DNA of 64,000 nt from Lysobacter dokdonensis DS-58 (GTDB lineage Bacteria; Pseudomonadota; Gammaproteobacteria; Xanthomonadales; Xanthomonadaceae). The DNA is taken from assembly GCF_000770795.1 (NCBI RefSeq), contig NZ_JRKJ01000008.1, forward strand, positions 1 to 64,000. The letters run 5' to 3'. A program made the position numbers and the translations under genes. The notes beneath the pieces were generated by a model. It had not been told where the DNA came from, made no database searches, and saw only the letters and a list, made by a program, of their open reading frames with translations. Every line of letters begins with the position of its first letter. The first letter of the stretch is position 1. Positions 51,628 through 62,139 of the stretch are shown here, piece by piece.

Positions 51628-53031
51628 TCAAACGATCCCGAACGCGTAGAACGCACCGATCGCGACGAACACCGCCGCCGTCTTGATCAGCGTGATCGCG
51701 AAGATGTCCTTGTATGCCTGCCGATGCGTCAACCCGGTCACGGCCAGCAACGTGATCACCGCGCCGTTGTGGGGCAGGGTGTCCATGCCGCCGGAGGCCA
51801 TCGCGGCCACGCGGTGCAACACCTCCATCGGAATCCCCGACGCCTGCGCATTCGCGATGAACGTCTCCGCCATTGCAGCCAGCGCAATGCTCATCCCGCC
51901 CGATGCCGACCCCGTGATGCCGGCCAACGCCGTCACCGTCACCGCCTCGTTGACCAACGGATTCGGGATCGCGCGCAACGCATCGGCGACGACCAGGAAC
52001 CCCGGCAACGCGGCGATCACCGCACCGAACCCGTACTCCGACGCCGTGTTCATCGAGGCGAGCAACGCCCCGCCGATGGCCGACTTCGTGCCTTCCGCGA
52101 ACCGCGCCACCACCGGCTTCCAAGCCAGCACCAGCACCGCGACGATCCCCGCGAGCAGCGCCCCCTCGACCGCCCAGATTGCCGTGACCTTCGAGACCTC
52201 CTGGATCACCGGCGCGGGCGAACCGATCACCCCGGGCACGAACGAATGCTCCACCCCGTACCAACCGGGAATCGCGTTCGTCAGCAGCTTGTTCACCACG
52301 CCGACCAACACCAGCGGGAACAACGCGACCAACGGATTCGCCAACCGATCGCCGACGAACGACGCCGGCTCGTTCACCAGCGTCGCAGGATCGCCATAGC
52401 CTTCGCCCTTGCGCACGGCCGCACGCCGGCGCGATTCCAGATACGCCAGGCCTGCCAGCAAGATCGCGACCGCCCCGATCATCCCCAACCACGGCGCCGC
52501 CCACCCGTTCGTGCCGAAGAACGCCGACGGGATGATGTTCTGGATCTGCGGCGTGCCCGGCAGCGCATCCATCGTGAAGGTGAAGGCCCCGAGCGCGATG
52601 GTCCCGGGAATCAGGCGCTTGGGAATGTCGGCCTGCCGGAACAACTCCGCCGCGAACGGATACACCGCGAACACCACGACGAACAACGAGACCCCGCCAT
52701 ACGTCAGCAACGCGCACACCAACACGATCGACAGGATCGCGCGCTTCGCCCCGACCACCCGGATCGCCGCCTTCACGATGGCCCGCGAAAACCCCGACAA
52801 CTCGATCAGCTTCCCGAACACCGCCCCCAGCAGGAACACCGGGAAATAGAGCTTGAGGAACCCGACCATCTTGTCCATGAACAGGCCGGTGAACATCGGC
52901 GCGACCAGCGACGGATCGGTCAGCAACACCGCGCCGAGCGCGGCGATGGGCGCGAAGAGGATGACGCTGTGGCCGCGGTAGGCGACCACCATCAGGAACA
53001 CCAGTGCGGCCAGCACGATCAGGAAAGCCAT
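51628..53031 (-). CDS. GntP-family permease, candidate 3-hydroxybutyrate transporter
   Basis: A 467-residue inner-membrane protein with about 12-14 helices of the GntP/ion-transporter superfamily. Typical pieces: LYFPVFLLGAVFGKLIE, LTYGGVSLFVVVFAVYPFA, GAFTFTMDALPGTPQIQN, and TGSASGGMSIALAAM with the late MASGGMDTLPHNGAVITLLAVTGL. GntP proteins import gluconate and other hydroxy acids. In Pseudomonas a GntP permease gene is adjacent to 3-hydroxybutyrate dehydrogenase. Here it is divergent from the TonB receptor and shares an operator-like 16-mer with the dehydrogenase/hydrolase promoters, so 3-hydroxybutyrate is the likeliest substrate. Start ATG 53031 after GGGGA. Confidence 0.85.
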   Translation of the reverse strand: MAFLIVLAALVFLMVVAYRGHSVILFAPIAALGAVLLTDPSLVAPMFTGLFMDKMVGFLKLYFPVFLLGAVFGKLIELSGFSRAIVKAAIRVVGAKRAILSIVLVCALLTYGGVSLFVVVFAVYPFAAELFRQADIPKRLIPGTIALGAFTFTMDALPGTPQIQNIIPSAFFGTNGWAAPWLGMIGAVAILLAGLAYLESRRRAAVRKGEGYGDPATLVNEPASFVGDRLANPLVALFPLVLVGVVNKLLTNAIPGWYGVEHSFVPGVIGSPAPVIQEVSKVTAIWAVEGALLAGIVAVLVLAWKPVVARFAEGTKSAIGGALLASMNTASEYGFGAVIAALPGFLVVADALRAIPNPLVNEAVTVTALAGITGSASGGMSIALAAMAETFIANAQASGIPMEVLHRVAAMASGGMDTLPHNGAVITLLAVTGLTHRQAYKDIFAITLIKTAAVFVAIGAFYAFGIV

Positions 53032-53070
53032 GCGTCGTCCCCGGTCGCAAGGGGCGACCACGATGGCGGC

Positions 53071-53076
53071 AGTGTT
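53071..53076 (-). promoter_or_regulatory. Weak candidate -10 box of permease gene
   Basis: On the minus strand GAACACTGCCGCC gives AACACT, 28 nt from the operator-like 16-mer and about 40 nt before the permease ATG. It is a poor match alone, but its placement parallels that of the bdhA box. Confidence 0.35.
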
Positions 53077-53104
53077 CGGCACCGCGCCCCGCGGGCCCAC
53101 TGTC

Positions 53105-53120
53105 CGAAAGTACGATGCCG
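53105..53120. promoter_or_regulatory. Operator-like 16-mer, copy 1
   Basis: CGAAAGTACGATGCCG lies between the divergent permease and TonB receptor genes. The identical 16-mer recurs at 60382-60397 between bdhA and the oligomer hydrolase gene. Its right end is 18 nt before the rightward -10 (53139), so it occupies the -35 position, as an activator site replacing a -35 would. Confidence 0.7.
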
Positions 53121-53138
53121 GAAGATTCGGCGGCGTCC

Positions 53139-53144
53139 TAGCCT
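53139..53144 (+). promoter_or_regulatory. Candidate -10 box of TonB receptor gene (TAGCCT)
   Basis: TCCTAGCCTTGGCC resembles the TAGGGT and TAGGCT boxes of the hydrolase and bdhA genes. No good -35 is present; the operator-like 16-mer stands there instead. Confidence 0.5.
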
Positions 53145-53194
53145 TGGCCTCGATCCGCGGCCGTCCGCCGCGCCTGCATCGGGGAATGGAACGC

Positions 53195-55471
53195 ATGAAG
53201 CGCAAGACACTGAGCCTGGCCATCGCCTGCGCCATGTTGCCGACGATCGCCTGGGCGCAGGACGCCCAGCCGGCGGCGTCGACGCAGCAGGAGACCGCCG
53301 CGAAGAAGACGACCACGCTCGAATCGGTCACCGTCACCGCGCGCAAGCGCGAGGAAACGCTGCAGGAAGTGCCGGTGGCCGTCACCGCGTTCACCTCCGA
53401 CGCACTCGACAAGCTGCAGGTCGAAGATCTCGGCGACCTCGACGCGCAGGTGCCGAACCTCACCGTCTATGCCGCGCGAGGTTCCTCCAGCACGATCACC
53501 GCGTACATCCGCGGCGTCGGCCAGTCCGATCCGCTGTGGGGCGTGGACCCGGGCGTCGGCATCTACATGGACGATGTCTACATCGCGCGTCCGCAGGGCG
53601 GCCTGCTCGACGTGTTCGACGTCGAGCGCGTCGAAGTGCTGCGCGGCCCGCAGGGCACGCTGTACGGCAAGAACACCATCGGCGGCGCGATCAAGTACGT
53701 CAGCCGCCCGCTGACGCCCGACATGCAGGGCTTCGGTTCGGTGACCCTCGGCAACTACGGCCAGCGTGACTTCAAGGCCGGCATCGGCGGCGGCCTCGGC
53801 GGCAACGACGCGCTGCGCGCCCGCGTGGCGGTGGCCGACATGCATCGCAACGGCTTCGGCGAAAACCTCGTCACCGGCGATGACGTCAGCGACAAGGACG
53901 TGACCGCGTTCCGCCTGTCGGTCGGCGCGTTCGTGACGGACGACTTCGACCTGCAATTCAACGTCGACCACGTCGACGACACCTCCGGCGTGCGCGCCGC
54001 GCAGATGCTGGCGCCGAACCCGTTCGCGCCGTCGATCTTCGCGCCGAACCCGAACGCGCCGGAGAACGCGCCGCTGGTGGCTAACCGCTTCGACGTGCGC
54101 AACGGCATGCCGAACATCAACGACACCACCATGCTCGGCATGTCGGTGACGGCGAACTACAAGTTCAACGACGACTGGACCTTCAAGTACGTCTGGGCCA
54201 AGCGCGAGTCGGATACCGAGACCAACATCGACTTCGACACGCTGCAGTCGAAGACCGCCGACGTGAAGGCCTTCTACAGCGACCAGCAGACCACGCACGA
54301 GCTGCAGGTCAACTACGACGCCGGCGGACGCGTGCATGGCGTGATGGGCATCTACTCGTTCGACGGCTACGCCGGCGGCCAGGTGCTCAACAACTTCTTC
54401 AACCTGTCCTTCGGCGACACGCACGGCACGGTCTACACCCAGAGCACCGCGGTGTACGCCGACTGGACGTTCGACATCACCGAGAAGTTCTCGATCGACG
54501 CCGGCGTGCGCTACACCGACGAAGACAAGCACGCGGTGGTCACCAACCAGTGCTACAGCGATTCCACCTTCACCAACGTCGCCAACTGCGCGGGTCTGGG
54601 CACGCCGATCGCGGCGGGCTTCGACCGCACCATCAACTTCAAGAACACCTCGCCGAAGATCTCGCTGGACTACCAGGTCACCGACGACATCATGGCCTAC
54701 GCGCTGGCCAGCCGCGGCTTCAAGTCCGGCGGTTACAACATCCGCGCGCAGGCCACGGCGGTGCCGCGTTCGGCCGAGCCGTTCGAAGACGAGCAGGTCG
54801 ATTCGTACGAAATCGGCGCGAAGATGGGGTTCCTCGATCAGTCCCTGTTCCTCAACGCCGCGTACTTCTACAACAAGTACGACGACATGCAGCTCTCGGT
54901 GTTCACCGAATACACGCTGCCCAACGGCACGCGCGCGTTCTTCGGCGACTTCACCAACGCCGGCGCGGGCACCGTGCAGGGCGTGGAGCTCGAATACCAG
55001 TGGCTGGCGAACGAGCACTTCACGCTGTCGGGCAACCTGGCGTGGCTGGACGCGCAGTTCGACGAGTACCTGTACAAGGGCTTCAACATCGCCGACCAGC
55101 AGGAGTTCACCAACGCGCCCGAGTTCTCCGGCGCGGTGAACCTCGAATACCGCACGCCGGTGGGCGACATGGGCGAGCTCTCGGCCCGCCTGACGTACTC
55201 CTACCAGTCCGAAGTCACGGCGACCACCGAAGTGACCCGCGACCCGGTCACCAACGTGCGCACGACCCCCATCACGCAGGACGGCTATGGCCTGGTGAAT
55301 GCGGGCGTGACGTGGGCCATCGACGACCACTGGTCGGTCATCGCGCAGGGCACCAACCTGACGGACAAGGAATTCCTGACCACGGGTTACGTGATCCCGG
55401 CCCTGGGCGTACGCACGGGCTTCTACGGCAACCCGCGCCAGTACAGCCTGACGGTGAAATACAACTTCTAA
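53195..55471 (+). CDS. TonB-dependent outer-membrane receptor
   Basis: A 758-residue outer-membrane transporter. Signal peptide at 1-22 (cleavage after AWA), TonB box TLESVTVTARKRE (about 39-51), plug domain with LRGPQGTLYGKNTIGGAIKYVSR, and a 22-strand barrel ending in a C-terminal Phe (YSLTVKYNF). It belongs to the FecA/CirA-like group without a SusD partner. The start ATG 53195 is chosen over ATG 53186 for ribosome-site spacing. Its neighbours and the shared operator suggest it imports 3-hydroxybutyrate oligomers or a related product rather than iron, but the ligand cannot be read from sequence. Confidence 0.92.
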   Translation: MKRKTLSLAIACAMLPTIAWAQDAQPAASTQQETAAKKTTTLESVTVTARKREETLQEVPVAVTAFTSDALDKLQVEDLGDLDAQVPNLTVYAARGSSSTITAYIRGVGQSDPLWGVDPGVGIYMDDVYIARPQGGLLDVFDVERVEVLRGPQGTLYGKNTIGGAIKYVSRPLTPDMQGFGSVTLGNYGQRDFKAGIGGGLGGNDALRARVAVADMHRNGFGENLVTGDDVSDKDVTAFRLSVGAFVTDDFDLQFNVDHVDDTSGVRAAQMLAPNPFAPSIFAPNPNAPENAPLVANRFDVRNGMPNINDTTMLGMSVTANYKFNDDWTFKYVWAKRESDTETNIDFDTLQSKTADVKAFYSDQQTTHELQVNYDAGGRVHGVMGIYSFDGYAGGQVLNNFFNLSFGDTHGTVYTQSTAVYADWTFDITEKFSIDAGVRYTDEDKHAVVTNQCYSDSTFTNVANCAGLGTPIAAGFDRTINFKNTSPKISLDYQVTDDIMAYALASRGFKSGGYNIRAQATAVPRSAEPFEDEQVDSYEIGAKMGFLDQSLFLNAAYFYNKYDDMQLSVFTEYTLPNGTRAFFGDFTNAGAGTVQGVELEYQWLANEHFTLSGNLAWLDAQFDEYLYKGFNIADQQEFTNAPEFSGAVNLEYRTPVGDMGELSARLTYSYQSEVTATTEVTRDPVTNVRTTPITQDGYGLVNAGVTWAIDDHWSVIAQGTNLTDKEFLTTGYVIPALGVRTGFYGNPRQYSLTVKYNF

Positions 55472-55489
55472 GGCGGGAACCCCTCCCAA

Positions 55490-55514
55490 CCTCCCCCTGC
55501 TGTGCGGGGGGAGG
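55490..55514 (+). terminator. Hairpin after the TonB receptor gene
   Basis: An 8-bp stem CCTCCCCC (55490-55497) with GGGGGAGG (55507-55514). No T-run follows, so it may be a Rho-assisted terminator or mRNA-end stabiliser rather than a full intrinsic terminator. Confidence 0.5.
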
Positions 55515-55549
55515 AGCGGATACGCTAGGCGCATGACGTTGCGCATTCC

Positions 55550-58500
55550 ATGTTGAACATCGGTGTCGTGGTTTTCGCGGGCCTGGCGTGGCTGGGCCTG
55601 CTGTTTTTCGCCGGGGTGTACGGCGAGCGGCACCCGCGTGCGTTTTCCTCGGGCTGGCGGCACGTCTACGCGCTCTCGCTCGCCGTGCACTGCACCTCTT
55701 GGACCTTCTACGGCACGGTGACGCAGGCCGCGCGCAACGGGTGGCCGTTGCCGCCCACCTTCCTCGGCGCGATCGTGCTGTACCTGGTCGGGTTCGGTTT
55801 CATGGTGCGGCTGGTGAAGCTGGCGCGCGAAACCAACGCCACGTCCATCGCCGACCTGATCGCCACGCGCCTGGGCAAGGATGCGTGGCTCGCCGCGACC
55901 ATCACGCTGGTCGCCGCGCTCGGCCTGATTCCGTACATCGCGTTGCAGCTCAAGGCGATCGCCATGAGCTTCGGCATGCTCACGGCCAGCGACGCCACGG
56001 GCGCGGCGTGGCAGGACAGCGCGCTGTATGTCGCGCTGGCGATGGCCTTGTTCGCGATGTTGTTCGGCACGCGGCGCGTCAGCGCGGCAGAACACAATCG
56101 CGGACTCGTGCTCGCGATGGCGCTGGAATCGGTGCTCAAACTCGCGGCGATGCTTGCGCTGGGTGCGTTCGTGTGGTTCGGGCTCGATTTCGAGATGCCT
56201 GCGTCGTCGGTGCAGGCGCCGGTGTCGCCGGGCGGGTTCGCGCCGCTGGTGCTGCTGGGCGCTTTCGCGATGTTCATCCTGCCGCACCAGTTCCACATCG
56301 CGGTCGTCGAGTGCCGCGAACAAGGCGACGTGCGCACCGCGCGCTGGCAATTCCCCTTGTACCTGGTGCTGATCGCGTTGCCGGTGCTGCCGCTGGCGCG
56401 CGCGGGCGAGGCGTTGCTGGGGTCGAGCGTGCCGTCCGATCTGTACGTGCTCGCGTTGCCGCTGTCGCAAGGGCAGGAGGGGTTGGCGCTGTTCGCATTC
56501 CTCGGCGGGTTGAGTGCAGCGACGGGCATGGTCGTCGTCAGCACGCTCACCTTGAGCCTGATGATCGGCAACCACTGGTTCGCGCCGGGCCTGTTGCGCG
56601 GTGCGTGGGCGCGTGGCGATGGCGGCGACTTGCGCGGACACGTCCTCGCGCTACGGCGCTTCGGCATCGTCGCGATCATGTTGCTGGCGTGGGGCTACAG
56701 CCGGCTCGTCGCGGGGAGCGAGGCGTTGGCGGACGTCGGCGCCGTGTCGTTCTCGGCGCTCGGCACGTTGGTGCCCGCGCTCGCATTCGCCGTGTGGCGG
56801 CCGCAGACGCCGGCGCGCGCGGTCGTGGTCGGCATCGTGGCGGCGTTCGCGACGTGGTGCTGGGTGCAATGGGTCCCCACGTTCCATGCGCTGCATGGCA
56901 CTTCACCGACGTGGTTGATCGACGGACCGTTCGGCATCGAGTGGTTGTCGCCGAACGGCTTGTTCGGGTTGACGGGGTGGAGCCGGCTCGGGCGCGCGGT
57001 GGGTGCGAGTCTGTTCGTCGGAACCGTCGCCACGGTGCTGGCGTTGGCGTGGAAACGCGAACTGCCGCGTCGCGCGCGGCGCGGTCTCGATGCGCGCACG
57101 CTGCGCGACGCGGGCCTGCGCTTCCTGCCGCCGGATCGCGTGGAAGCGATGCTGCGCGAAGCGCCGGCCGACGGCGCCGTGCCCGCGCAGACCGAAGCGC
57201 AGGTCGAACGCGAACTCGCGGCCGTGCTGGGCTCGGCCTCCGCGCGAGTACTTCTCGATGCCGCGCGGCGCGAAGCAGGGCATCTGGACACGGTGGCCGC
57301 CATCGTCGGCGAGGCCTCGCGCGATCTGCGGTTCAACCAGCGCGTGCTCGAGACTTCGCTGGAGAACATGGACCAGGGCATCAGCGTGGTCGATGCGCAG
57401 CTGCGCCTGGTCGCTTGGAATCGCCGGTACGCGGAGTTGTTCGGCTTCCCCGAATCGTTGCTCACCGTCGGCACGACGATCGCCGAACTCGCGCGTTACG
57501 CGCTGCAACAGATGCCACCGACGGGCGACGCCGAACGCGCGTTGCAACGGCGACTGTCGCACATGCGCGCGGGCACGCCGCACCTCACCGAGCGCGAGTT
57601 TCCCGACGGCCGCATCGTCGAGATCCGCGGCAACCCGATGCCGGGCGGCGGGTTCGTCGCGACCTTCACCGACGTCACCGCGTTCCGCCGCACCGAAGCG
57701 GCGTTGCTGCAATCGAACGAAACGCTCGAGCAACGCGTGGAAGAACGCACCGCCGCGCTCGAATCCGCGCGCCACGAGGCCGAGCGCGCGAACGACGCGA
57801 AGGGCCGTTTCCTTGCCGCCATCGGCCATGACTTGTTGCAACCGTTGCACGCCGCGCACTTGTTCACCGATGCCCTTGCGCAGCAGGTGCCCCCGGGCGG
57901 AAAGGAGAGCGTGAAGCAGATCCGCGGCGCGCTGGATTCGACGACCGATCTGCTGACCGCGCTGCTCGACATGTCGCGGCTGGAAGCAGGCGGCCTGGAT
58001 CCGCAACCGCGCGCATTTGCGCTCGCCGACGTGCTCGAACCGCTCGCTTCCGAATTCCGCGTGCTGGCGGCCGAACGCGGCCTGCAATTCGACGCGCTCG
58101 CGACCTGCGCATGGGTCCACAGCGACCCGCAGTTGCTGCGCCGCGTGCTGCAGAACTTCCTCGCCAACGCGGTGCGTTACACCGACCGTGGTCGCATCGT
58201 CCTCGGCGTGCGCCGCACGGGCGGTGCGCTGCGCATCGAAGTGCACGACACCGGCCCGGGCATCGAGCGCGAAGCGCAGTCGCACATCTTCGACGAATTC
58301 CGCCGCGGCGCCGACGCCGCGGGGCAGGGGCTCGGCCTGGGCCTGGCGATCGCCGACCGCATCGCGAAGTTGCTCGACGCGCCGCTCACGCTACGCAGCG
58401 CGCCCGGCACCGGCACGATGTTCGCCGTGACGGTCCCGCGTGTGGCCACGCCCGCACGCGCGCAACACGCCGCCGCGAAGAGTGGCCTGGCCGGCACCCG

Positions 58501-58864
58501 CGTCCTCGTCCTCGACAACGAAGTCCTCGCCCGAAACGCCTTGCGGCAATTGCTCGAAGGCATGGGCTGCTCCGTGATCGACGCCCGCGACGCGAACACA
58601 GCCGACGCGGCGTTGTCCGAATCGCCCGCGGACCTGTGGTTGTTCGACTACCACCTCGACGACGGCGCCACCGGCGTCGGCGCGCATGCGCGGTTGTCGC
58701 AAGCCCATGGCGCGCGACCGACGCTGATCCTCAGCGCCGACGCAGGCACCGACGTGCGTGCCGCCGTGCAGGAAGCGGGCTTGCCGTTGTTGATGAAACC
58801 GTTGAAACCGTTGGCGTTGAAAAGCGTGCTGGATCGCTTGCTTGCTGCACGAGCGGTGACGTAG
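55550..58864 (+). CDS. SLC5-fused hybrid histidine kinase (CrbS/CbrA-like)
   Basis: A 1104-residue membrane kinase. Residues about 1-490 form 12-13 transmembrane helices resembling the sodium:solute symporter (SLC5) fold. A STAC-like segment follows (VERELAAVLGSASARVLLDAAR, about 545-585), then a PAS domain (LENMDQGISVVDAQLRLVAWNRRYAELF), a coiled coil, HisKA with His760 in AAIGHDLLQPLHAAH, HATPase (NFLANAVRYT; HDTGPGIE; GLGLGLAIADR) and a receiver with Asp1033 in LWLFDYHLDD. CrbS and CbrA kinases of Vibrio, Pseudomonas and Shewanella share this layout and control acetate or carbon use with a LuxR- or NtrC-type regulator. Here a LuxR-type regulator is 18 bp away, convergent. It may sense or transport a small carboxylate such as 3-hydroxybutyrate (inference). 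Confidence 0.92.
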   Translation: MLNIGVVVFAGLAWLGLLFFAGVYGERHPRAFSSGWRHVYALSLAVHCTSWTFYGTVTQAARNGWPLPPTFLGAIVLYLVGFGFMVRLVKLARETNATSIADLIATRLGKDAWLAATITLVAALGLIPYIALQLKAIAMSFGMLTASDATGAAWQDSALYVALAMALFAMLFGTRRVSAAEHNRGLVLAMALESVLKLAAMLALGAFVWFGLDFEMPASSVQAPVSPGGFAPLVLLGAFAMFILPHQFHIAVVECREQGDVRTARWQFPLYLVLIALPVLPLARAGEALLGSSVPSDLYVLALPLSQGQEGLALFAFLGGLSAATGMVVVSTLTLSLMIGNHWFAPGLLRGAWARGDGGDLRGHVLALRRFGIVAIMLLAWGYSRLVAGSEALADVGAVSFSALGTLVPALAFAVWRPQTPARAVVVGIVAAFATWCWVQWVPTFHALHGTSPTWLIDGPFGIEWLSPNGLFGLTGWSRLGRAVGASLFVGTVATVLALAWKRELPRRARRGLDARTLRDAGLRFLPPDRVEAMLREAPADGAVPAQTEAQVERELAAVLGSASARVLLDAARREAGHLDTVAAIVGEASRDLRFNQRVLETSLENMDQGISVVDAQLRLVAWNRRYAELFGFPESLLTVGTTIAELARYALQQMPPTGDAERALQRRLSHMRAGTPHLTEREFPDGRIVEIRGNPMPGGGFVATFTDVTAFRRTEAALLQSNETLEQRVEERTAALESARHEAERANDAKGRFLAAIGHDLLQPLHAAHLFTDALAQQVPPGGKESVKQIRGALDSTTDLLTALLDMSRLEAGGLDPQPRAFALADVLEPLASEFRVLAAERGLQFDALATCAWVHSDPQLLRRVLQNFLANAVRYTDRGRIVLGVRRTGGALRIEVHDTGPGIEREAQSHIFDEFRRGADAAGQGLGLGLAIADRIAKLLDAPLTLRSAPGTGTMFAVTVPRVATPARAQHAAAKSGLAGTRVLVLDNEVLARNALRQLLEGMGCSVIDARDANTADAALSESPADLWLFDYHLDDGATGVGAHARLSQAHGARPTLILSADAGTDVRAAVQEAGLPLLMKPLKPLALKSVLDRLLAARAVT

Positions 58865-58882
58865 CAGGACGACGGCCAGCCG

Positions 58883-59545
58883 TCACTCCATCTGCCGCGA
58901 CGGATCGCTCAATTCCAGTTCCCGCAGGATCACGCTCGCCTGCGTGCGATTGCGGACGCCGAGGCGTTCGAAGATCGCGGACAGGTGCGACTTCACCGTG
59001 CGCTCCTGGATGTCGAGGCGGTCGGCGATCTGTTTGTTGAGCAATCCTTCCGCCACCAGCGCCAGCACGCGGAATTGCTGCGGCGACAAGCTCGCCAGGC
59101 GTGCAGCGAGCGCGGAATCACCGGGCGTCGAAGGCGCGCCATTCACTGCGGCACGCAATGTCGCGGGCAACCATTGCTCCAGGGCGAGCACGCTGCGAAT
59201 GGCGTGGCGCAGGTCGTCCAGACCGGTGCTCTTCGGCAGGTAACCCGCGGCGCCGTGGTCGAGTGCGCGGCGGATGACGCGCGGGTCATCGTTCGCGGAC
59301 ACCACGACGACGGCGACACCCGGGTGTTGCGCGCGGATCGCCGCCAATCCCGCGAGGCCATGGTTGCCCGGCATGTGGAGGTCGAGCAGCACGAGATCGA
59401 TGCCCGGTTCGGCATCCAGGCGCGCGAGGACGCCTTCGAGCGTTTCGGCTTCGTGGACGTCGAGGTCGGCCACGGCGTCCTTCGCCGCGCCGCGCAATGC
59501 GGCCCGGAAGAGCGGGTGGTCGTCGGCGATCAGCAGGGACGGCAT
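58883..59545 (-). CDS. LuxR/NarL-type response regulator
   Basis: A 220-residue two-domain regulator. The receiver has acidic residues IADDH (Asp8, Asp9), phospho-acceptor Asp55 in LVLLDLHMPG and Lys105 in GYLPKS. The GerE-type helix-turn-helix covers about residues 148-210 (LSPQQFRVLALVAEGLLNKQIADRLDIQERTVKSHLSAIF). It is 10 bp downstream of bdhA on the same strand, so regulator and enzyme are one operon. The convergent neighbour is the SLC5-fused kinase, its probable partner, in the manner of CrbS/CrbR. Its likely target is the 16-mer found in both divergent promoter regions of this locus. Confidence 0.93.
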   Translation of the reverse strand: MPSLLIADDHPLFRAALRGAAKDAVADLDVHEAETLEGVLARLDAEPGIDLVLLDLHMPGNHGLAGLAAIRAQHPGVAVVVVSANDDPRVIRRALDHGAAGYLPKSTGLDDLRHAIRSVLALEQWLPATLRAAVNGAPSTPGDSALAARLASLSPQQFRVLALVAEGLLNKQIADRLDIQERTVKSHLSAIFERLGVRNRTQASVILRELELSDPSRQME

Positions 59546-59555
59546 CGGGCCAGTG

Positions 59556-60320
59556 TCACTGCACGGTCCAGCCGCCGTCCACCTCGATTGTGTGCCCGGT
59601 GATGTTCCGCGCGTGCGGGCCCATCAGGAACGCGGTGATGCCGGCCAGTTCGTCGAAGCCGATGAACACGCCCTTAGGCATCGGCTTGAGCATCACCTCA
59701 CGCACGACGGCGTCTTCGGGAATGCCCCGCGTGCGCGCCTGGTCGGCGATCTGCTTGTCGACCAGTGGGGTCTTCACGTAGGTCGGGCAGATGGTGTTGA
59801 TCGTGATGTCAGTGTCGGCCGTTTCCAGCGCGATCACCTTGGAGAACCCGACCAGCCCGTGCTTGGCCGCGACGTAAGCGCTCTTGTACGGGCTGGCGAC
59901 GAGCGAGTGGATCGAGCCGATGTTCACGATGCGGCCGAAGCCGCGTTCGCGCATGCCGGGCAGCACCGCACGCGACAAACGCGCGACACCGACGAGCATC
60001 ACCTGCACGAGGAGATCCCATTTGGCGATTGGGAACTCTTCCAGCGGCGCGACGTGTTGCAGGCCGGCGTTGTTCACCAGGACGTCGATCGGCCGCGACA
60101 CTTGCGCCATCGCGGCGGCGACGCTGTCATCGGACGTGACATCGAGGGCCAGCGCTTCGGCCGATCCGCCGCCAGCCTTGATGGCGTCGACGACGGCCTG
60201 CGCGGGCGCCAGGGCGACGTCGGTCACCACGAGATGGTGGCCCGCGTTCGCCAGTTCGGAGGCGATGCCGGCGCCGATGCCACTACCGGCGCCGGTGATC
60301 AGGATGCAACGTGGGGTCAT
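59556..60320 (-). CDS. bdhA: D-3-hydroxybutyrate dehydrogenase
   Basis: A 254-residue short-chain dehydrogenase oxidising D-3-hydroxybutyrate to acetoacetate with NAD. The cofactor loop is TGAGSGIG (9-16), with NNAG at 83-86. The residues known to bind and act on substrate in Pseudomonas 3-hydroxybutyrate dehydrogenases are all present at a constant offset: Gln88, Ser136, His138, Lys146, Tyr149 (with Lys153) and Gln190. This makes the assignment much stronger than a generic SDR call. It is the first gene of a bdhA-regulator operon, divergent from the oligomer hydrolase gene. Confidence 0.95.
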   Translation of the reverse strand: MTPRCILITGAGSGIGAGIASELANAGHHLVVTDVALAPAQAVVDAIKAGGGSAEALALDVTSDDSVAAAMAQVSRPIDVLVNNAGLQHVAPLEEFPIAKWDLLVQVMLVGVARLSRAVLPGMRERGFGRIVNIGSIHSLVASPYKSAYVAAKHGLVGFSKVIALETADTDITINTICPTYVKTPLVDKQIADQARTRGIPEDAVVREVMLKPMPKGVFIGFDELAGITAFLMGPHARNITGHTIEVDGGWTVQ

Positions 60321-60348
60321 GGCGTCGGGCTCGGAGCGTGCTGCGGCC

Positions 60349-60354
60349 AGCCTA
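60349..60354 (-). promoter_or_regulatory. Candidate -10 box of bdhA (TAGGCT)
   Basis: Minus-strand GCTAGGCTGGCCGC differs at one base from the plus-strand GCTAGGGTGGCCGC before the hydrolase gene. The predicted start near 60342 gives a leader of about 22 nt. The box is 27 nt from the operator-like 16-mer. Confidence 0.55.
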
Positions 60355-60381
60355 GCAGGCCGTGGCGCGGACGCCTTCGGA

Positions 60382-60397
60382 CGAAAGTACGATGCCG
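60382..60397. promoter_or_regulatory. Operator-like 16-mer, copy 2
   Basis: CGAAAGTACGATGCCG, identical to 53105-53120. It ends 17 nt before the -10 of the hydrolase gene, again in the -35 position, and lies 27 nt from the bdhA -10. Confidence 0.7.
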
Positions 60398-60414
60398 CGC
60401 GGCGGCCGGGTTGC

Positions 60415-60420
60415 TAGGGT
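60415..60420 (+). promoter_or_regulatory. Candidate -10 box of the oligomer hydrolase gene (TAGGGT)
   Basis: TTGCTAGGGTGGCCGCATG: the box ends 7 nt before the A of the start codon, so transcription should start on the ATG itself and give a leaderless mRNA. Confidence 0.55.
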
Positions 60421-60426
60421 GGCCGC

Positions 60427-62139
60427 ATGGATAACATGCGCGAACGAGCGAAGTGGGGCGCGGCGCTGTGCGTCGCGATGGCTGGGCTGGCGGGTTGCGC
60501 ATCCACGCCGCGCGCGACGGAGGCGACGACGATGTTCACCGCGACGCAGACCACCGAACACCGCGGCAGCGACGATCTGCTCACCGCCGGCCTGGGGATC
60601 GACGGATTGCGCGCGATGGCCGCGCCGGCGTTCGCCGATCCCGCGCATCCCACCGACGCCGAACGTCGCCGTCGCGCGCTGTGGAACAACTGGCGCGGCA
60701 TCGCCGATCTCGGGCCGCTCGGCGGCTACGGCATCCTGTACGGCACGACGCAGGCGGTGCCCGGGCGCGAGTTCAGCGCACAGGCGCGCATCGATGGTGC
60801 GCACCAGCCGCATCGCGTGCTGGTGCAAGTGCCCGATGGATTCGATGCGACCAAGCGTTGCGTGGTCGTCACCGCGTCGTCGGGTTCGCGCGGCATCTAC
60901 GGGTCGATCGCGGTCGCCGGTGCATGGGGCCTGCCGAAAGGCTGCGCCGTGGCGTACACCGACAAGGGCGCGGGCACCGATTACGTCGACCACGGCGCCG
61001 ATGGCGTCGAGGTGAAGCACGCGCATTCGCAGGACAATCCCGAAGCCGATTGGGGCCGCCACGTGAAGCAGGCGGCGGAGTTCGCGCTGCAATCCCTGAC
61101 GCAAGCCTTCCCGGACCAGGCGCCCTTCCGCTTCGACAACACGCGCGTCATCGCGGTGGGCATTTCGAACGGCGGCGGCGCGGTGTTGCGCGCGGCGGAA
61201 CTCGACGGTGATTGGCTCGACGCCGTGGTCGCGGGCGAACCGAGCATCGACGCGGCCGGTGGTCGCGCGTTGTACGACTACACCACGCAAGCGGCGCTGT
61301 TGATGCCGTGCGCGTTGCTGGATTTGGAATCGCTGCCGCAATCGCCGTTGTCGGCCGCGGGCAAGGCCGTCGGCACCTTGCGTTGCACCTCGCTCGGCAT
61401 CACGCCCAAGGACGCACGCGCGACATTGCAGGCGAGCGGTTGGACCGATGCCGCGATGCGCGCGGCGGCGTTGTCCGTGGATTTCGATCTCTATCGCGCG
61501 GTCGCCGTGACGTATGCATCGGCGTACGGGCGTTACGGTTTCAACGCGCATCCGTGCGGCTTTCGTTTCGGCGCGCAGAATCCGGACTTCACTCCGCGCG
61601 CAGCGACGGACGTCGAGCGCGCCGCCTGGTGGAGCGACGGCAGCGGCATTCCGCCGGGCGCGGGTGTGAACATCGTCGACACGAAGGTCGCCGCACCGGA
61701 TTTCACGCTACCGGGCCTGCAATGCCTGCGCGCGTTGTGGGACGGGCAGGGCGCCGACGCCGACCGCGTGCGCGCGGGTGTCGCGCAGCTGCGCGCGAAC
61801 GCCCCGCGCGCGGGGTTGCCGGTTGTCGTGGTGCATGGTCTCGACGACGGGCTGATCCCGCCCGCGTTCTCGAGCGCCCCGTACGTCGCGATGGCGAAGG
61901 CCGCCGGACGCGACGTGCGCTACTGGCAGATCCGCAACGCCCAGCACTTCGACGGCTTCCTCGCGCTGCCCGATTACGGCAGTCGCTACGTGCCTTTGCT
62001 GCCGTACGTGTACGCGGCCCTGGACCAGGTGAATGCGCATCTCGACGATGCGGCCAAGCCGTTGCCGGTGGATGCGGTGATCGAAACGAAACCGCGTGGG
62101 GCGACGCCGTTGTCGGCGGAGCATCTTGCGATTCCCTGA
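60427..62139 (+). CDS. D-3-hydroxybutyrate oligomer hydrolase (lipoprotein)
   Basis: A 570-residue hydrolase of the 3HB-oligomer hydrolase family, which splits short 3-hydroxybutyrate oligomers, products of PHB depolymerase, into monomers. The N-terminus is a lipoprotein signal with lipobox LAGC (Cys24); Ala at +2 predicts the outer membrane. The alpha/beta-hydrolase nucleophile is Ser247 in [15 protein letters not shown]. Late acid and His candidates are [12 protein letters not shown] and NAQHFDGFL. It also has [18 protein letters not shown]. With TonB receptor, permease and dehydrogenase it completes a path from oligomer to acetoacetate. No leader or ribosome-binding site precedes the ATG. 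Confidence 0.92.

Follow-up and report, generated by a model that had tools for sequence, protein, structure and literature searches.

Six adjacent genes of Lysobacter dokdonensis DS-58, between positions 51,628 and 62,139 of the 64,000-nucleotide stretch analysed here (contig NZ_JRKJ01000008.1, positions 1 to 64,000; hereafter the window), raise the question of how a Gram-negative bacterium may take up and sense the fragments of a polyester present in its environment. The enzymes that degrade polyhydroxybutyrate (PHB) outside the cell are well known, but the uptake and sensing of its fragments by Gram-negatives have, to our knowledge, been little described. A sequence-only reading, made without database searches, had seen in these genes a self-contained locus for the uptake and breakdown of 3-hydroxybutyrate (3HB) oligomers, composed of a TonB-dependent receptor, a lipoprotein 3HB-oligomer hydrolase, a GntP permease, a 3HB dehydrogenase (BdhA), an SLC5-fused sensor kinase and a LuxR-type regulator. 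The reading frames bear out six genes at these places, and the comparative analyses reported below make it likely that the locus is devoted to the utilisation of PHB and 3HB oligomers, scavenged from environmental PHB, under a dedicated two-component system resembling CrbS/R.

In the proposed route, the oligomers would come from other organisms or, for many relatives, from a secreted polyhydroxyalkanoate (PHA) depolymerase belonging to the locus itself, and the TonB-dependent receptor would carry them across the outer membrane. The hydrolase, a predicted lipoprotein, would cut them to 3HB, which the GntP-type permease would import and BdhA would oxidise to acetoacetate, ScoAB, encoded elsewhere, then forming acetoacetyl-CoA. 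The SLC5-type hybrid kinase would sense 3HB or acetoacetate and phosphorylate the LuxR-type regulator, which may in turn bind a GKMC-N4-GTMC dyad centred near -42 and activate the promoters of hydrolase and bdhA, of receptor and permease, and of scoAB.

Gene identities and conserved linkage

The hydrolase (60427..62139, + strand, 570 amino acids) matches PF10605 (3HBOH) with 423.9 bits for a cut-off of 27 and carries the lipobox LAGC. The lipobox cysteine C24 and the residues S247, D473, D474 and H507 are invariant in 14 aligned sequences, from which we infer that S247, D473/D474 and H507 are the catalytic residues; a comparison of the protein with solved structures gave no match. The neighbouring bdhA (59556..60320, - strand) passes TIGR01963 (351.4 bits, cut-off 307.05), and the six substrate-binding and catalytic positions that had been read from its translation (Q88, S136, H138, K146, Y149 and Q190) are all present and align with those of solved 3HB dehydrogenases. 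The receptor (53195..55471, + strand, 758 amino acids, or starting at the ATG at 53186) matches PF00593 (158.6 bits) and PF07715 (70.1 bits). As a separate observation, the 12 other aligned sequences possess, near position 190, a segment of about 25-30 residues that is absent from the hydrolase of the window and from one of the same genus.

The naming of the permease (51628..53031, - strand, 467 amino acids, 10 hydrophobic segments) as GntP held only through its annotated relatives: it is 70-75% identical to plasmid-borne records annotated as "GntP family permease" (15 listed of 103). No Pfam or NCBIfam model matched it, no Pfam family appeared at E values up to 10, including PF02447, which we take to be the Pfam GntP model, and BLASTP revealed no similarity to E. 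coli GntP. One relative (~74% identical), in Azospirillum lipoferum, stands in line with genes for 3-oxoacid CoA-transferase A and B and for a 3HB dehydrogenase. Such gntP-scoA-scoB-bdhA operons resemble the present locus by the same permease family next to a 3HB dehydrogenase, but differ from it in that no receptor, oligomer hydrolase or SLC5-type kinase is annotated in the 11.3 kb shown. The permease is probably an inner-membrane transporter of 3HB or acetoacetate.

The hydrolase is present in 107 of the 149 genomes of the family, distributed among 42 of 54 genera. Linkage was evaluated on whole-genome coordinates, using the hydrolase of 105 of these 107 genomes (G073 and G143 being left out) and setting aside receptor matches at or below 52% identity (five paralogues, and that of G114 at 37%) and kinase matches at or below 45%. 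In 81 of the 85 family genomes having both, the distance from receptor to locus-type kinase is at most 8 kb, which is the tightest of the linkages tested; kinase and hydrolase are within 25 kb in 86 of 102 genomes, and receptor and hydrolase in 66 of 82. These counts run opposite to the observation that the sequence-only reading had named as fatal to its proposal, namely homologues of the receptor and kinase occurring mostly away from bdhA and hydrolase genes. The conserved linkage of a receptor with catabolic genes, by which TonB-receptor utilisation loci are recognised, is thus found here.

A closer view was obtained from 80 named loci, the best 80 of at least 484 confirmed relatives, whose titles give either genera that we take to belong to Lysobacteraceae or no more than the names Lysobacterales or Proteobacteria. 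In 76 of the 80, about 2 kb or less separates the regulator from the hydrolase, whether or not bdhA lies in the interval. Inside the fetched stretches, many of which stop short of the receptor position, the kinase was retrieved in 53 loci, the receptor in 40, the permease in 39 and a bdhA above threshold in 20. In three receptor-kinase blocks fetched from split loci (L117, L121 and L123), a dehydrogenase-like gene whose product is 39-40% identical to BdhA stands beside the permease.

The putative regulator box

A 16-mer, CGAAAGTACGATGCCG, is common to both divergent intergenic regions of the window. It is found as GTCCGAAAGTACGATG between permease and receptor (53102..53117, + strand), with a -10-like TAGCCT 21 bases on, and as GGACGAAAGTACGATG between bdhA and hydrolase (60379..60394, + strand), with a -10-like TAGGGT 20 bases on; both regions thus display a dyad GKMC-SAAR-GTMC-GATG 20-21 bases ahead of a -10-like box. 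Shuffles of the window alone are not decisive for this element, of which there are two exact 16-mer copies and three matches at up to three mismatches, the latter reached in 9 of 100 shuffles; the genome-wide counts decide. In the genome of strain DS-58, a 13-base core of the box has two exact matches, both at the locus, and two with one mismatch, against one match for the reversed control. Footprinting of the 80 named loci returned TGGTACSAAAGTACGATG, followed by a -10-like TAnnnT at fixed spacing, and a site within two mismatches of the 13-mer of the window lies upstream of the hydrolase in 77 of them (71 within one mismatch). Similarly, a GKMC-SAAV-GKMC-R box occurs in 34 of 38 permease-receptor intergenic regions, and in none of the 38 once shuffled.

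The pattern GKMCSAARGTMCGATG was then searched in 80 of the family's 149 genomes, of which 65 give a hydrolase match and 15 do not. It gave 69 matches in 51 genomes and none when reversed, and the exact box was present in 51 of the 65 hydrolase-bearing genomes and in none of the 15 others. By place, 51 matches are ahead of the hydrolase, 12 ahead of the receptor and six elsewhere, the pattern having been derived partly from hydrolase-upstream sites, so that the enrichment there is partly by construction. One of the six off-locus boxes precedes scoA in the genome of DS-58 and two precede off-locus bdhA-like genes (42-44% identical); the construction of the pattern does not account for these scoA and bdhA sites, for the reversed control or for the lack of matches in genomes devoid of the hydrolase. 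One-mismatch box matches from another search, 21 in total for 22 with the reversed control, were dropped.

The third exact box of the DS-58 genome, besides the two at the locus, ends 52 bases ahead of the start of scoA, which reaches 275.8 bits with TIGR02429 (cut-off 128.5) and is followed by a second CoA_trans match. The enzyme encoded by scoA, 3-oxoacid CoA-transferase, carries out the next pathway step after BdhA. The description of the route as self-contained has consequently to be given up, since the activation of acetoacetate is encoded by scoAB on another contig, tied to the locus only through the putative box. Among 12 genomes examined, a scoA box within two mismatches was found in six of the eight bearing the locus and in one of the four without it, the chance of such a box being about 0.006 per random 250 bases on one strand. 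The dyad is a putative binding site of the locus regulator.

Two further features lie next to these boxes. In L178, which belongs to contig C1 of the DS-58 genome, a gene at 107-853 reading like an electron-transfer-flavoprotein beta subunit is divergent from scoA across the putative box. At the hydrolase, the -10-like TAGGGT ends six bases ahead of the ATG (60415-60427), with a similar spacing in many of the 80 named loci, which suggests a conserved leaderless mRNA with a predicted start at 60427.

Depolymerases, receptor exchange and the nature of the substrate

The window was said to contain no PHB depolymerase gene. Its receptor-kinase gap is 78 bases, and no PF10503 match was detected in the DS-58 genome. 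Some relatives are differently equipped: the gene between receptor and kinase passes NF050059 (extracellular type 2 short-chain-length PHA depolymerase; cut-off 280) in L135 (296.1 bits) and L125 (299.5 bits), and in a third relative a type 1 PHA depolymerase is located beside the receptor (281 bits versus 150). The content of the receptor-kinase gap was examined in 22 of 82 pairs, L125 apart; among the 21 family gaps exceeding 1 kb, 16 hold a type 2 depolymerase homologue, three an alpha/beta hydrolase with a MaoC-like protein and two neither of these. In a same-genus relative, G039, a PF10503 match (149 bits) is present at a distance of about 67 kb from the hydrolase gene. The locus of the window looks like a scavenger form devoid of depolymerase, which would live on oligomers made by others. 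In L134 (8033-9384), L193 and L194, the alpha/beta hydrolase and MaoC-like dehydratase replace the depolymerase between receptor and kinase, a pair hinting at a related substrate.

The locus extends beyond the family. Of 200 genomes searched across the order, 38 have close receptor relatives, and 20 of these 38 are placed by taxonomy in other families. The neighbourhoods of these 20 receptors include a locus-type kinase in 16 cases, the permease in 16 (only 36-40% identical in seven), a LuxR-type regulator in 13 and the hydrolase in nine, and each of them displays at least one locus-type partner gene, some of the stretches stopping at contig ends. In 12 of the 20, a PHA depolymerase gene separates receptor from kinase; together with the 16 family genomes, this position ties both genes to a polyester independently of the other evidence. 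Thirteen of the out-of-family loci were searched for the box, and a GKMC-SAAG-GTAC form is ahead of the receptor in all 13, as GTACGAAGGTACAAGTG in seven; GKAC-SAAG-GTAC is present in 12 of them, the remaining one (L220) having GTCC-GAAG-GTAC. We consider the chances about even that receptor, PHA depolymerase, oligomer hydrolase, permease and a dedicated SLC5-type two-component system constitute, throughout the order, one co-regulated unit for the utilisation of environmental PHB.

Several observations weigh against assigning the whole locus to PHB and 3HB oligomers. The linkage is incomplete: bdhA is variable, being above threshold in only 20 of the 80 named loci, the others having a weaker match there (38-47% identical) or none; kinase and hydrolase are more than 25 kb apart in 16 of 102 genomes, several of them on separate contigs; and three genomes (G023, G071 and G124) give no hydrolase match although receptor and kinase are present. 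As to the box, besides the partly built-in enrichment ahead of the hydrolase, 14 of the 65 hydrolase-bearing genomes have no exact copy, three of the six off-locus boxes adjoin no recognised pathway gene, G039 and G062 have no good scoA box while the locus-less G127 keeps one with a single mismatch, and the full pattern is found within one mismatch in only two of the 20 out-of-family loci. The receptor itself, at the same position and in the same orientation, is only 26-33% identical to that of the window in 10 of the 44 named loci showing one there (full length in L038, L063, L064, L084, L096 and L098, cut by the end of the stretch in L066, L091, L102 and L105), and L105, whose kinase is the nearest to that of the window in the kinase tree, is among these. 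Finally, 23 of the 105 hydrolase-bearing genomes have no close receptor, 22 giving no match at E 1e-120 and G114 one of only 37% identity, and a molecule as small as 3HB could cross porins without a receptor.

The position in the locus can be kept, it appears, while the receptor is exchanged. On account of these 10 distant receptors our confidence was slightly lowered, PHB and 3HB-oligomer utilisation remaining likely and the order-wide polyester unit passing from somewhat favoured to evenly balanced. The exchanged or missing receptors also favour an explanation in which the monomer pathway alone is real, with permease, BdhA, hydrolase and regulators acting on 3HB and the receptor being a passenger that imports something else, the more so as the receptor of the window passes no substrate-specific NCBIfam cut-off. 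However, a passenger would hardly be expected to show the tightest link of all those tested, that with the kinase, to share a boxed intergenic region with the permease in 34 of 38 cases, or to have a depolymerase inserted between itself and the kinase, and we hold this explanation to be rather unlikely. Under the favoured assignment to PHB and 3HB oligomers, the ligand of the receptor would be the oligomers. The DS-58 genome has in addition a second receptor paralogue, 44% identical and off-locus (contig C12:404581-406731).

The sensor kinase and its relation to known systems

The hybrid kinase (55550..58864, + strand, 1104 amino acids) is composed of a membrane part followed by PAS, HisKA (with H760), HATPase and receiver domains, Pfam and NCBIfam matches being obtained for PAS_7, HisKA, HATPase_c and Response_reg. 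Its description as fused to an SLC5 transporter is less firm than the sequence-only reading had it. With 12 hydrophobic segments in the protein, the membrane part matches, over profile positions 3-570 and with E 5.8e-71, the profile of a solved chain (10ed_A) named only "histidine kinase", and the kinase is akin to those linked to acsA; conversely, no Pfam SLC5 model matched the membrane part, and hhalign gave no significant match (0.3% probability) to a two-row profile of E. coli PutP and ActP. An SLC5/STAC type is presumed for it. The response regulator (58883..59545, - strand) is of the LuxR/NarL type, with Response_reg and GerE domains.

This pair resembles the CrbS/R (MxtR/ErdR) acetate two-component systems, in which a membrane part is likewise joined to a kinase with PAS, HisKA, HATPase and receiver domains, the partner is of the LuxR type and a dyad with the core AC-N4-GT stands directly ahead of a sigma-70-like promoter (PMC5715377). 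The same source presents the ACTU box as needed for CrbR-mediated activation in Pseudomonas fluorescens, and, compared by eye, the box of the window shares its AC-N4-GT core, in an imperfect dyad placed in the same way before a sigma-70-like promoter. The two-component system could then be CrbS/R itself, sensing acetate, with the 3HB genes as one arm of a general acetate regulon. Along with the resemblance of the box to the ACTU motif, this would fit the best named relative of the regulator, ErdR/CrbR (204.8 bits, below the cut-off of 390, for a model of the kind "exception" against which the acs-linked regulators of the family were not scored), and the single match to the membrane part at E 1e-30 in the DS-58 genome, which is that of the locus type.

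The kinase tree points in the other direction. It comprises 42 sequences (the window, 29 chosen loci, three second-copy kinases and nine class-level kinases), and the 30 locus-type kinases fall on one side of a branch with a support of 100/100, apart from the acs-linked and class-level kinases. Two such kinases are common in family genomes, many relatives having both, and the second copy, about 40-45% identical to the locus type, has acsA and a gene of the LuxR type as neighbours in two of three family loci opened; acsA is also within the fetched 1.5 kb of three of the nine class-level homologues. Moreover, the locus kinase is linked to PHB and 3HB genes and not to acs/actP, the locus box is extended to GTMCGATG and stands ahead of hydrolase, receptor, scoAB and bdhA-like genes, and the three exact boxes of the DS-58 genome precede only locus genes and scoAB. 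With the kinase outside the acs-linked group and the ErdR cut-off missed, we judge an acetate-sensing CrbS/R improbable, and favour a separate, 3HB- or acetoacetate-responsive system in the service of the PHB and oligomer genes.

A third possibility, that the locus mobilises a PHB store of the cell, is rejected as scarcely credible. The hydrolase and BdhA families are generally known to act on endogenous PHB in other bacteria as well, but no PhaC_N (PHA synthase) match over cut-off was found in 12 of 12 genomes (that of DS-58 and 11 relatives), which makes an exogenous substrate probable. In addition, the hydrolase carries a lipobox, and a receptor in the outer membrane would serve no obvious purpose.

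By its clustering of a receptor, an exported hydrolase, an inner-membrane permease, a catabolic enzyme and its own regulator, the locus recalls the TonB-receptor loci generally known for polysaccharides and other carbohydrates, from which it differs by a polyester as the presumed substrate, by the absence of a SusD partner among the six genes and by its SLC5-type two-component regulator. An SLC5/STAC kinase-LuxR pair for one carbon source is exemplified by the RpuS/R pyruvate system of Sinorhizobium, which controls a pyruvate symporter, polyester genes not being mentioned in the portion of PMC9100948 consulted; the SLC5/STAC systems named in that portion relate to acetate, histidine or glucose, pyruvate, and ionic strength. 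Among open-licence papers, no description of a locus like the present one was found by title or beginning of abstract. If the order-wide polyester unit is real, it would include the first TonB-dependent receptor known to us that serves fragments of a polyester, together with an SLC5/STAC system responding specifically to 3HB or acetoacetate, which would give this kinase family a new signal. The concept of utilisation locus would be widened from polysaccharides to a biodegradable plastic, with a receptor, a sensor and a promoter box that are all testable, and the box could be used as a 3HB-responsive reporter.

Two minor features concern the surroundings of the kinase gene. The receptor/kinase gap contains a GC-rich inverted repeat (55490-55514; CCTCCCCC...GGGGGGAGG), perhaps a terminator or an attenuator lowering kinase expression. 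In some relatives, additional genes are located between the kinase and the LuxR-type regulator, which read as NUDIX-like in L037, L052 and L038 and as GGDEF/EAL-like in L133.

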